Of a DNA stretch of 64,000 nucleotides, positions 2,581 through 22,046 are shown piece after piece; the stretch's first letter is position 1; every line of letters begins with the position of its first letter. The stretch is from positions 28,270,080 through 28,334,079 of the forward strand of contig NC_091929.1 in assembly GCF_041260155.1 (NCBI RefSeq), given 5' to 3'. The notes under the pieces are model-generated. The model saw only the letters and a list, made by a program, of their open reading frames with translations. It was not told the DNA's origin and did not search any database. The translations under genes and the position numbers were made by a program. Origin of the DNA: Ptychodera flava. Lineage: Eukaryota; Hemichordata; Enteropneusta; Ptychoderidae.

Positions 2581-5351
2581 CTATTTGCATCCAGTGTGGA
2601 GAAACTTCCAGCAAGCTGTTAATGGTTAAAAAAGGAAAAAGGAACGTTAACTGAAATGCAATATGAGGATTGAGTGACAGTATTTGGAAGGGTGGGTTTT
2701 GCACTGTGGAGGACCACTGCCACAGCTTCTTAGGACTGTACAATTTTTGCTCATCTCATGAAGAAATAAATCAAAACGCAGAGTTCCTTATATTATCGCG
2801 TGATGGACTGCATCTGATAATATAAGGTTATTCACAAAATACCGGGATTTATGTCCGAGTACATCGTGCAGCAGAGGTATTGTCCGAGACGCGTAGCGTC
2901 GAGGACAATACCGCAGCGTACGATGTACGAGGACATAAATCCCGGTATTTTGTGAATAACCTTATTATTATACACCTTTTTAGTCCAACTTTACTTGAAA
3001 AAAGTCGAAATTTAGGCGTTTTTGGATGCTTCTTCACTTCTGCTTCTGCACGATCGCGAGCAGACTGGGAACGCGTTCAGCGTGTCCGCTATTAAGCGCA
3101 TAGAACGAAATTTCAACCCGCGCTGCGCAGGGCGCGTGGTAGAATTTTTACGTCAGCAGCATAATTTCACTCAAATTAACCGGTTTTGGACTGACCATGA
3201 TTTCCTTTGTGAAGTACTGAATGTTAAGAAGTATATATTGTTGTAAAAATGTAAAATATTCTCTTCTTTTTCCTCGCGTTGACGTAAAGGTGTTTTGAGG
3301 TCAAAGGTCAAATAGCGTCCAATAACGCCTAAAGTTATTGTACTCCGCGTCAAAGTTATTGGACTCCGCGTCCTCTGATACCGAAACTTACTGTACGACG
3401 AAACTCCATAGGTTACAGACGTAGGTGTATGATAAATCACGTTACATCAACAATTGTAAAGAATAACAAATGGAAAGGATTGGTTGGGTATTTATTTTTT
3501 ACTTGGTTGGTTTCCTTCAAGACACACTCGGCAGAATAGTCTGGGTATTTTAGTCATATGTCGAGTAGAATAACATAAATGCTACAACAAAAACTTACGC
3601 TTCTTGGATTTTGGCAAGTTATCTTCTTTCCTGTCTTCAAGGATTTCTCTCATTTCGTCAAGACACCCCTCTCATCAAATCGTCCGAATCCTACGGTTCA
3701 GAGCGAAGAAGAAGTAGAATTGTCGGTATTCAATTCATCCAGAGACACGCAGACAAGAAGACACACAGACAAACAGACGCAAAGACTCTTTGACTCAGAT
3801 TTATTCCACACTTATCATGTCTCTCAGACAGAGAGTCAGTCAGACAGCTGTCATAGTGCATAACAAATGGCCTTTCATGCTGCTTCTCACAGATCCTCTG
3901 AAGTCGAACTCGTGATATGATTTATCTAAGTGTCGTTTTGATGTTTAGATAGGTAACCCACACATTTATACACTTGTCATTAATGATGTGAAAGAGAAAG
4001 TGTCGTGAAACACCAAAGTATACCAGACAGAGATTTGAACCTTTGTAATTTTGGCGGCTGTTAATGATAGGAAGACTTGATCCAAGTGTGTCAATACTAA
4101 CTGTTTCGGCTGATGTGCAGCGTCTCGGAAGCTGTTATCAAATTGGTTGGCCGAATCTTACCGTTGTAAATGAATAATACAATATTACTCCCTAAGTTGC
4201 TGTGAATAGTGACAATCGACCGATCAGATATAACCTTCCTAGCACGCTGCACATCAGCAGACATTTTTTCTCGGCGGTGTTTTTGTGAGTTATTCTCCTG
4301 TCACACGGTTGAAGTTGAGTGGTGTCTAGCAAAGTGGTACAAAGTCACTGCTTTTGTAACAAGTTATACTATATTTGTGGCAAAACTGAAAATATGACTG
4401 AAAATATCAACAATGTCCCCACTGTTTTGTAAATATTTTCTGGCATCGTAATATATGCTAATGAGCTGAAATGTTCATGGTTGTTTATGCTAATGGACAC
4501 GTAAGCCAATGAGACTAACAGCTGCCCTGTTAAACCACAAAGCTTTGCTACAGAATTCCGTTCGGCATTCATATCTATCGGTATTTCACTTTATATATTG
4601 ATTCTGCGACGTCGTCTTATCGATTTAAAACATTAAGCATTAAAACACTAGCTAATTTTTCCTTTTCCCTCACTCCAATAGCCATCTATTCAATATAATG
4701 ATGTCGACTGATGTACTTTTAGATATTTCTTCACTAAAAATACAAATTCTTGTTTTACTCCCGAAATCAGGTAACACTTCGTTTTCATCAGCCTATATGA
4801 TTGTAGCGTTCAGTGTTAGAATTCGAATTTTAGTCCGGACTCGAAATAATTTGTATCAACAATAAATTTGCATGTTGTACAAAACAATTGTATTGGCAAG
4901 ACTAAAACTCTGTACATCAACATACTTCTTTCGTTGAAAAATGAATATGTGTAATACTCAAAATTAGTAAATATATTTTCGAAAAGTAACAACTCTCTTG
5001 TTTAACTGACAAAGGTATGTCAATATTCGTGTATCGAAACATTTTCAGTTGTTACAGCTCTTTTGGATGAATGATAACTGTGTTAGGTAAAGATTCGATT
5101 GTGTCTCGATTTCAACAAGTCTGGTTTATTTTGGAGTGGTATAATTCGCAAGCCTTGATCTATGTGCCCTCGCCGAAAGTAACTGCAACGCTGTTCCATG
5201 CTAGAAATCACTCTACCTGTCAACTGAAGAATTTTATGTTAGATATGCTGGTACTCACCATGCCTAAGTCTGCAAATCTGCCTCGCTCACTGTTTACCTG
5301 GGTTACCCAAACTAAGAGAACTGAAAAGGTGAATAGTAGAACGTACTTCAT
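2581..5351 (-). pseudogene. Secreted Cys-ring peptide precursor, copy 1 (frame lost in exon 2)
   Basis: Three exons by comparison with copies 2 and 3. Exon 1 is 5259-5351: 31 codons, start MKYVLLFTFSVLLVW, signal peptide ending near VNS, then ERGRFADLGM, followed by donor GTGAGT. Exon 2 is 3599-3690, acceptor CGTAG, donor GTAAGT. Exon 3 is 2581-2615, acceptor AACAG, reading CWKFLHTGCK then TAG. Exon 2 is 92 bp instead of the 94 bp of the other copies, so the frame does not carry through. The start context, TATA box, all four splice sites and exon 3 are intact, so this is either a recent pseudogene or an assembly error. Exons 1 and 3 still spell the peptide family. The upstream minus-strand TATA box is at 5436-5443. 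Function is unknown; see copy 2 for the intact form. Confidence 0.7.
2822..3435. mobile_element. Hairpin element 1: nested CGAG cruciform plus TIR-bounded module
   Basis: A near-perfect 144-bp palindrome occupies 2822-2965. The stem is interrupted at symmetric places by CGAG in the same orientation on both arms: 2856-2859 with 2928-2931, and 2885-2888 with 2900-2903. Directly after it comes a module bounded by inverted TATTATACACCT (about 2965) and AGGTGTATGATAA (3423-3435). Units 2 and 3 have about 850 bp of other sequence here, so insertion went with a deletion or replacement. The same plan recurs at 33816 and 55125 with different stem sequences. Confidence 0.75.
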
Positions 5352-5435
5352 GGTTGTAATGGCAAAGTCGTGGGATGAAACTGTGGCACACCCAAGACAC
5401 TCTCAAGATCCTGAAGATAACCCGGCCTTAGACTG

Positions 5436-19699: not shown

Positions 19700-22046
19700 T
19701 TAGCAGCGCAAAAACTTCCAGCAAACTGTTGATTGTTCAAAAGAAAGAAACAACTTGAAATGCCGTATGAGGCTTGAACGGCAATCTTTCAAAGGGACTT
19801 TTAAAAGCTGTCAGGGACAAAAACATAGCAAGCTGATACTCCGGGTTTCCGAGAATATTTTTGATAAAGTAGTGAGATATTCTAAAAGAAAGCATGTCCA
19901 ATGCAAGCCTCAGGTAATAATGTCACGCCGATGTTAGTTGACTGGAAGGGGCAAACTAAATAAAAATTAAAAAAACATTGTCCCACGTGATATTTTTGTT
20001 TGAACTGCCTTACATCACACATTTCTCAACACGGCATTTGGGTTTGCGGTGATTTCATACCATGGATAAAGAAATACTAATGATGTCTGAAAATTACTGG
20101 CGAGAAAGTAATTTGGCGTGTGAAACTTCATGGAATACATATATTAAGGTTGAGATACGGCAATGTCGCCAATGCTCCAAAGTGACTTTCTGTTTCTTTT
20201 TCGAGATAGCATCTCGGGAGGTGAAACAGCTAGGCGAAAGTCTTGTCTAACCCATTGCCCAAGGTGTTATTCACACGCATTTACATATTATATTGTTTCT
20301 CGAAACGATTTTCATTGAAAATAAACCGTAAAAATACCTGACTAGGCAAAACAATATTTTGGGGGTTGTAATTCCATTAAAAGTTAGTAAGAAGCTCGAG
20401 AAACGTTTTGTCTGTTTTTATTTTGTTTAGTTTTTAGTGATTTTTAAGTTTATCTTTATTTCATCATTGTTTAAAGGTCATTACCCAAGATCAACTGAAA
20501 ATATTAATCATCAATTAGTTTTGGACCAAAGATTAAGGATCTGTGAATAAAAAATGTTTGCCTGATTAGAGCAAACACATATTGTTTGTAATGCTGGTGC
20601 AAGTAAAGAAGCAATAAGAGAAAATTAAACCGAGATTTTTCTGAAAATGCGATAAAGCAATATTTATCATTATGAATCCCTGAAATGGTACTGATTAATT
20701 TTGTGACCATAATTATCGCACCATAAACTATAAATAGCTTTACAGCTAAAAAAAGAATAACAAATGCAACAGATTGCTCGAGTATTTACTCCTAACTAGG
20801 TTTGGTTTCCTACAAAGATCACTCGGTAGCATGGTCTGGTATTTTCGTCCTACGTTAAATAGATTAAGCCTAATACTACAAGACATTCTTACGTTTCTTG
20901 GATTTAGGGACGCTCTCTTCCTTGCCAGCTTCCAGGATTTCTCTCATTTCGTCCAAGACGTCCCTCTCATCAGACTCGTCCGAATCCTATGGTTCAGAGC
21001 GAAGACTAAGCATAATTGTTGGTATTTATGGGAGAGAGAGAGAGAGAGAGAGAGAGAGAGAGAGAGAGAGAGAGAGAGAGAGAGAGAGAGAGAGAGAGAG
21101 AGAGAGAGAGAGAGAGACTGCTTCTCACAATTCCTCGAAAGTCACAATGACTCTTTATATCTTTTTGTCTACTGGATGTTTAGGGACACTTCATATTCAT
21201 ACTACTGCCATGAATGAAATCTTAATTGAAAAAGAAAATACGGTGAATTACACTAGTGTACCAGGCGGAGATCTCTCGCCATTTGAACTTTCGTAATTTC
21301 TTCGGCTTCCGATGAAATAAAAACATGAACATACATTGGCATCATTAACATTTACCAAGGGGCGTTTCCGAGCGAGCCTTATCGAAGTGTTGAGTGGAGT
21401 TAAAAAGGTCTAATATATACTAATAAGCTATCATGTTAATGAGTTTATATGCCATATCCTTATATTCTTATATGTCAATTAGGCTAGATGCTGCCCTACT
21501 AAACCGCAAACTTTTGCGTGAAATTATATTCGACATCCATAATATCCATTGGGATTTCAATTTATATATTTAATTCTGTAACATCGAATCTTCTAGTTAA
21601 AACATTACGCTTCAAAACGCAGTCATATGTTTCCTTTTCCTTCGCTACCATAGCAATCTACTCTATGTTATGTCGACTGAGGTGGTGTAATTTGCCTTGG
21701 TAAGTTTAATGGCCTGCATGAATGACACTAGGAATAATATCACACTCACTGTACATCGCAAAAATGTGTGACTGACAAGGGAATGCTGATATTCGAGCAT
21801 CGAAATATTGTAAGTTGTTACAGGTCGATGGACAAATCATAACTAAGTGGCATATTGTCTCCTTGTCGTTTGAAAGAAACCATGCCATCTCTACTGACAC
21901 GATACTGCCTGTGCGCAGCTGCAGGTTTTCATATTAGACAAGCCGGTACTTACCACACCTAAGTCTGCGAATCTGTTTGGCATGCTGTTCACCTGGGCTA
22001 AGCAGACCAAGAGAACTGAAAAGGCGAATAGGAGAACGTATTTCAT
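19700..22046 (-). CDS. Secreted Cys-ring peptide precursor, copy 3 (intact, 70 aa)
   Basis: Exon 1 is 21954-22046, exon 2 is 20893-20986, exon 3 is 19700-19725. Donors are GTAAGT and GTAAGA; acceptors are ATAG and AACAG. Phases match copy 2, giving 213 bp. The signal peptide begins MKYVLLFAFSVLLVC and ends near VNS; MPNRFADLGV follows, then an acidic spacer with DSDESDERDVLDEMREILEA, then KSKK, LCWKFLRC and a TAA stop. The ring is shorter than in copies 1 and 2 (five residues between the Cys instead of seven) and ends at the second Cys. The N-terminal part of the mature region (LCWKFL) and the spacer core DEMREILE are unchanged despite heavy divergence of the introns, which suggests selection. 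The TATA element near 22125-22136 is degenerate. The function is unrecognised; a hormone-like or defence peptide is inferred. Confidence 0.75.
21032..21117. repeat. (GA)n microsatellite next to exon 2 of peptide gene copy 3
   Basis: A pure GA run about 45 bp upstream (gene sense) of the exon 2 acceptor, so it is CT-rich in the transcript. Units 1 and 2 have a degenerate GACA-type repeat at the same place. Confidence 0.95.

Follow-up and report, generated by a model that had tools for sequence, protein, structure and literature searches.

A tandem array with two intact genes and a broken third copy, predicted to encode a small secreted ring peptide

We have analyzed a stretch of DNA of 64,000 bases (the window; 37% G+C, CpG observed/expected 0.72), in which positions 2581-22046 hold three related minus-strand loci: A on the right, B in the middle and C on the left. 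Its spliced genes and their neighbors let us read the window as DNA of an animal, and by usual norms the CpG ratio argues against a vertebrate. A promoter region, three exons, introns and a poly(A) signal are common to the three, and a self-comparison of the window reveals that the spacers are homologous between units, as are the genes. The three loci make up one tandem array. The array is real; genes A and B are intact, and the third copy, C, is broken. Judged from the DNA letters, we give a probability of roughly 0.55 to the array encoding a duplicated small secreted peptide of the neuropeptide or peptide-hormone sort. A preliminary description of this DNA had reported three genes, each with a signal exon, an acidic exon and a small exon encoding CWKFL. 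All three loci are present on the minus strand with these exons, and the reading frames of A and B are open. Copy C, however, is broken as sequenced, so that three working genes are unsupported.

Gene models and conservation in the array

Copy A runs from 22046 to 19700. The coding part of its first exon (21954-22046, 93 bp) extends from the ATG to a GTG/GTAAGT donor in phase 0, and encodes a predicted signal peptide and the start of the pro-region, MKYVLLFAFSVLLVCLAQVNSMPNRFADLGV. Exon 2 (20893-20986, 94 bp) encodes an acidic spacer with a PKSKK end, has a coding-like score and is followed by a phase 1 intron. The coding part of exon 3 (19700-19725) supplies (L)CWKFLRC and the stop. The spliced product is MKYVLLFAFSVLLVCLAQVNSMPNRFADLGV / DSDESDERDVLDEMREILEAGKEESVPKSKK / LCWKFLRC, 70 amino acids followed by a stop codon. 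Copy B (15446-11841) is built in the same way, with the coding part of exon 1 at 15354-15446, MKYVLLFTFSVLLVWVTQVNSDRGRFADLDM, the acidic spacer with its PKSKK end and coding-like score at 12996-13089, and the coding part of exon 3, (L)CWKFLHSGCK and stop, at 11841-11875. Its spliced product, MKYVLLFTFSVLLVWVTQVNSDRGRFADLDM / DSEDFDERGVLDEMREILEDREEDNLPKSKK / LCWKFLHSGCK, has 73 amino acids before the stop codon. All these exons lie on the minus strand.

Intron 1 is in phase 0 and intron 2 in phase 1. The junctions proposed earlier (15354/13089, 12996/11875, 21954/20986 and 20893/19725) all fall on GT/AG and leave open frames of 73 amino acids in B and 70 in A. The exon sizes given earlier also hold: the signal exon is 93 bp in all three copies, and the acidic exon, with the codons for the PKSKK end in every copy, is 94 bp long in A and in B and 92 bp long in C. 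When the splice sites are scored with matrices, each of the copies has a strong donor 1, among the top 0.3% of GT sites. Donor 2 lies within the best 1.1-4.9%, and the acceptors fall, across the copies, between the 3rd and 33rd percentiles of AG sites. KSKK had been described as followed by the Cys ring; both elements are there, but splicing inserts a leucine between KSKK and the first Cys. Intron 2 interrupts a Leu codon, so that processing would most likely take place at KSKK-L. An alternative acceptor for exon 3 read by eye, TTACAG/GTAACG, would give KKR in B; it was rejected, since neither A nor C conserves it and its use would shift CWKFL into another frame.

The flanks of the genes carry motifs that we take to be a TATA-like box, an inverted CCAAT and a poly(A) signal. 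The TATA-like box TATATAAA lies about 90 bp before the ATG in copies B (15531-15538, minus strand) and C (the same block, 5436-5443), and the corresponding region of A, near 22123-22130, is degenerate. Upstream of the TATA-like region, ATTGG (the inverted CCAAT) is found in A and B and is changed in C. Apart from two simple repeats, a block around the ATG and three blocks upstream of it are conserved in all three copies. Downstream, the first AATAAA past the stop occupies the same alignment column in all three, 450-490 bases away. It lies at 11348-11353 on the minus strand in B, and its aligned counterparts begin at 19244 (A) and 2102 (C). A conserved TATTCAACAAAT follows it, and copy A has extra AATAAA sites farther on.

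Copy C (5351-2581) retains an intact coding part of exon 1 (5259-5351), with 4 differences from B in 93 bp. Its exon 2 (3599-3690) is disrupted. It lacks a T and a G that B has, both in short runs, and carries two 1-base gaps relative to A and B; the frame meets a premature TGA after 41 codons (the stop is codon 42), and exon 3 (2581-2615), with codons for CWKFLHTGCK, is out of frame as sequenced. Copies B and C are identical at 89/93, 85/92 and 33/35 positions of the three exons, at 1213/1528 in intron 1 and at 475/832 in intron 2, where copy C consists mostly of unrelated sequence. The corresponding values for A and C are 75/93, 77/92 and 23/29 in the exons and 626/928 and 469/878 in the introns. 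Both gaps shorten small homopolymers, and an assembly error is therefore possible; copy C is either a young pseudogene or the result of assembly errors. Within its intron 2, in sequence absent from A and B, positions 2817-2971 form a near-palindrome (87% over 157 aligned bp) that may be an inserted fold-back transposable element.

At the left edge of the window, positions 1-801 (no strand assigned) match the spacer at 8601-9414 at 81%, as the start of a further repeat unit. Because this spacer copy reaches the window edge, the array may extend beyond it, and the unit spacing would place a further gene about 3 kb outside. Searching the window by tblastn with the exon peptides gave no full exon set besides A, B and C, the other matches being short or weak (best E 0.86). 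The Cys-Trp-Lys-Phe pattern occurs three times in the window, each time in an exon of the array, against 0.18 expected; at least three occurrences were obtained in 1 of 100 shuffles. The spacer between B and C contains a tandem repeat of about 180 bp at 7254-7832. A dispersed repeat of about 200-350 bp lies in both orientations near 400, 9014, 10530, 17163, 18534, 23630, 24474 and 36626, and at least five copies of this family have TCAAAATGGCC in common. The copies near 400, 9014, 17163 and 23630 are not by themselves markers of unit ends, because relatives at 10.5 and 36.6 kb make the repeat dispersed.

Comparison of A with B bears on whether the exons are translated. Exons 1-3 are identical at 73/93, 78/94 and 25/30 positions, the introns at 619/930 and 684/1023. 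Gaps not divisible by three make up 30 of 37 in intron 1 and 26 of 29 in intron 2; the exons contain a single gap of six bases, which keeps both Cys, and no frame-breaking gap. The differences are distributed over codon positions 1-3 as 11, 9 and 19. They change 20 amino acids, where 39 randomly placed substitutions are expected to change 27.0 (P 0.003), and a stop arises in 83% of these random sets. Under a neutral, intron-like model (33% mismatch and an assumed frameshift rate of 2% per base), 6.3% of sequences are stop-free and 0.08% also keep the frame, and none of 20,000 keeps at least 50 identical residues. The stretch PKSKKLCWKFL is identical between A and B at 11/11 residues and the remainder at 39/59 (Fisher P 0.027, for a stretch picked after seeing the alignment). 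A six-frame scan for coding segments gives exon 2 scores of 12.6 (A) and 8.6 (B), where the window maximum is 39.3; this is weak support, since unlikely frames score similarly. The conclusion that emerges from the sequence comparison is that the exons of A and B evolve as protein-coding DNA, with conservation above that of the introns and with changes that stay in frame.

A predicted secreted peptide and its alternatives

Hydropathy and charge give the products of A and B the layout of a secreted, processed precursor: a hydrophobic N-terminus with the character of a signal peptide, an acidic pro-region, of net charge -8 and -10, then a basic site and lastly a short, basic C-terminal two-Cys peptide. 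This type of precursor, already recognized in the preliminary description, is seen in both copies. The putative rings are CWKFLRC in A, with five residues between the Cys, and CWKFLHSGC in B, with seven, and the ring peptides have a predicted pI of about 9. The ring peptide is probably a hormone-like signal. In the proposed pathway the signal peptide, probably cleaved after VNS, would direct a propeptide of 49-52 amino acids into the secretory pathway, and the two Cys of the C-terminal peptide would form the ring in the endoplasmic reticulum. A prohormone convertase would cut after KSKK, and in copy B the last Lys may be trimmed. The calculated monoisotopic neutral masses of the oxidized peptides are 1065.525 Da for LCWKFLRC and 1318.631 Da for LCWKFLHSGCK, or about 1190.54 Da once that Lys is gone. 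The released LC(WKFLR)C or LC(WKFLHSG)C, presenting Trp-Lys on the ring, would act on a rhodopsin-type receptor, possibly one of the somatostatin/allatostatin-C/urotensin/MCH group.

The preliminary description could not match the peptide by name, and our searches likewise returned no named family. Pfam, searched at E up to 10 with A, B and two C-terminal pieces, gave no credible match: one below-cutoff match for A (an unrelated DUF, E 0.33) and none for B. HMMER copes poorly with short peptides, and its filters discard the majority of weak matches. Among PDB sequences there was no credible match either; the lowest E was 1.1 with B and 2.1 with A. The string CWKFL is absent from the running text of the literature searched. 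Judged by title, no natural ring-peptide family is among the matches listed for CWKF, and of the matches listed for topic searches of the same text none has a title that concerns such a precursor. In one peptide paper CWKF belongs to a synthetic scrambled control peptide (PMC13386142). The peptide of A and B thus matches no family checked, a weak claim of novelty that covers PDB sequences and family profiles.

Several observations weigh against a coding gene for a peptide hormone. All three methods place dN/dS below 1, YN00 only weakly so (NG86 0.16/0.45, LWL85 0.14/0.34, YN00 0.20/0.26). In simulations at the exons' own divergence (18.6%), at least 50 of 73 residues remain identical in 12.9% of runs, so that the protein identity alone is unremarkable; 16% of these runs are free of stops. 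The 95 bases before the ATG match between A and B at 76/94, on a par with exon 1. The acceptor of intron 2 in copy A is poor, the weakest of all at the 33rd percentile of AG sites. A KK followed by Leu is a non-ideal convertase site, the precursors of A and B have no amidation signal, and the ring is without FWK, IWK, FXP and CFWKYC. A broken copy within a tandem array is typical of defence or venom peptides, too.

If these were homologous non-coding repeats resembling exons by chance, the broken frame of copy C, the tiny exons and the conservation of the stretch before the ATG to the level of exon 1 would all be natural. We consider this very improbable in view of the frame and conservation tests, the neutral model rarely keeping the frame and never the identity seen between A and B. 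The array, its broken member and the cationic nature of the ring make a secreted defence (antimicrobial) peptide, or a venom or mucus peptide, the strongest rival. In such a peptide the acidic spacer would silence a cationic Trp ring until cleavage, and duplication would give variants. It is a possible, if doubtful, explanation, also named in the preliminary description. The local array with its diverged C-terminal ends, the short precursor and the predicted pI speak for it, whereas PKSKKLCWKFL is fixed between A and B and is not the variable part, the intron phases fit a neuropeptide group, and a single ring peptide of 8-11 residues with one disulfide is small for a defence or venom peptide.

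Two further explanations are special cases of a peptide hormone, and their odds overlap with it. That the array encodes a true, divergent member of the somatostatin/allatostatin-C (SS/ASTC) superfamily with a shortened ring we consider unlikely. The Trp-Lys, the C-terminal two-Cys peptide and the succession of phase 0 and phase 1 introns, as in echinoderm SS1 genes (PMC7536072), favor this assignment; the Pfam result and the missing FWK/IWK and FXP cores argue against it. Six shuffle comparisons were made with known precursor sequences. Locally, the pro-region bears a weak likeness to a human somatostatin precursor (the score is reached in 7/2000 shuffles for B and 134/2000 for A), which is a lead only and is not used as proof. 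For fly AstC the counts were 5/2000 with A, over the acidic stretch outside the ring, and 675/2000 with B. Low counts thus appeared in two of six comparisons, neither of which held as strongly in the other copy. With the human urotensin II (UII) precursor there was no signal, 555 and 269 of 2000 shuffles reaching the score. A UII-type peptide, as reported in Aplysia and oyster, is very improbable, even with a basic site before a C-terminal ring that has Trp-Lys-aromatic (WKF against WKY). The UII core is the cyclic hexapeptide CFWKYC (PMC3493602), with four ring residues and a Phe before the Trp, whereas A and B have five or seven and the Trp directly after the Cys. Human UII and URP genes have a phase 1 N-terminal intron (PMC7536072), where intron 1 of A and B is in phase 0.

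We return to the peptide hormone as the preferred explanation, and to what it would mean. Annotation readily overlooks genes like these, with no coding exon longer than 94 bp, and the precursors of cyclic neuropeptides lack the length that most homology searches need. Should A and B be expressed, they would let two ring sizes that occur in nature be compared on the same Trp-Lys core, and would supply a candidate ligand for somatostatin-like orphan receptors; were the product a defence peptide, the array would be an ordinary lineage-specific one. According to PMC8851493, SS/ASTC precursors had yet to be identified in hemichordates and xenacoelomorphs, where receptors exist, and the array would be valuable if the window came from either group. 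It is very doubtful that A and B belong to an undescribed peptide-hormone family, spread by tandem duplication, with a Trp-Lys ring whose size is unusual and varies (five residues in A, seven in B). Such a peptide could be the missing SS/ASTC-type ligand of a receptor-bearing lineage such as hemichordates, which as to lineage is a speculation.

Neighboring genes and repeats

Ten segments of the window were run against Pfam, with convincing matches for two (Bcl-2 and PTPMT1-like). A Bcl-2 family gene lies at 37726-39113 on the plus strand. Its BH1/BH2-like exon (38952-39113) has a Pfam E of 1.5e-6, at 29.1 bits against a cutoff of 31.4, and BAK as its best PDB match (E 0.014). The preceding exon contains a stretch, IASRIAAIGDQI, that we take to be BH3-like and that has no Pfam match. 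On the minus strand, a gene for a PTPMT1-like mitochondrial phosphatase lies at 55891-56379. Exon 55891-56073 matches Pfam DSPc (E 1e-15) and PDB 3rgo (E 6.4e-11), and the preceding exon (56131-56379), without a Pfam match, was assigned by eye. A long coding-like plus-strand segment at 50046-50795 encodes 250 amino acids; the product is acidic, rich in Ser and hydrophobic at its C-terminal tail, a possible tail anchor, and Pfam gave nothing above cutoff for it. Searches of the window for tRNAs and for Rfam matches at gathering score were negative.

A satellite array of about 101-bp units in both orientations occupies 44284-48311 and holds the 25 longest of 291 inverted-repeat pairs (83-93% complementary). 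Adjoining it is a tandem repeat of about 42 bp (48410-48869). A further tandem repeat at 58974-59567 is near-identical, with a unit of about 197 bp and copies 97-100% alike.

Comparison with known ring-peptide precursors

The likeness to UII and somatostatin-type hormones drawn earlier stands for the type of precursor, but the comparison with UII is weaker than that with SS/ASTC, on the phase of the first intron (0 in A and B, 1 in human UII/URP genes). Keeping Trp-Lys and lacking FWK/IWK, FXP and CFWKYC, the peptide of A and B can be filed in neither the SS/ASTC nor the UII group. UII and apUII of Aplysia (PMC3493602) likewise have a C-terminal ring with W-K-aromatic; the ring is CFWKYC in UII and CWKFL(R or HSG)C in A and B, whose first-intron phase is unlike that of human UII/URP.

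The ambulacrarian MCH precursors (PMC4772807) are also small (ArMCHP has 88 amino acids), with a C-terminal two-Cys peptide after a dibasic site. As described there, however, this is a 28-residue peptide with Met or Ile after the first Cys, both of which are absent from A and B, and a basic residue stands beside the second Cys. In A and B it is Trp that follows the first Cys, and a basic residue precedes the second in A only.

Somatostatin and echinoderm SS2 (ArSS2) have in common with A and B the Trp-Lys in a C-terminal two-Cys peptide, and no amidation. The ring of A and B is shorter and has no Phe or Ile before the Trp, and for SS2 genes the part of the text covered mentions a phase 0 intron only. 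ArSS1 (KCIGRFQPFSMPC) and ArSS2 (RAKNARCMADFWKGRGLVDC) are both C-terminally located, end in Cys and have no amidation signal (PMC7536072).

Of the gene plans reported, that of echinoderm SS1 (allatostatin-C-type) precursors comes nearest to A and B. The echinoderm SS1 precursor ArSSP1 (PMC7536072, PMC8851493) differs in its length of 132 amino acids and in the FXP of ArSS1, where A and B have 70-73 amino acids, rings of five or seven residues and no FXP; the P of FXP is itself replaced in some protostome ASTC peptides (PMC8851493). Its likeness to A and B lies in a C-terminal two-Cys peptide after a dibasic site, the disulfide and cleavage in A and B being predicted, and in the introns. Starfish and sea urchin SS1-type genes are reported to have an N-terminal intron in phase 0 and a C-terminal one in phase 1 (PMC7536072), the exact place of the latter lying outside the text consulted for this likeness, and the phases of A and B, 0 and then 1, agree with them.

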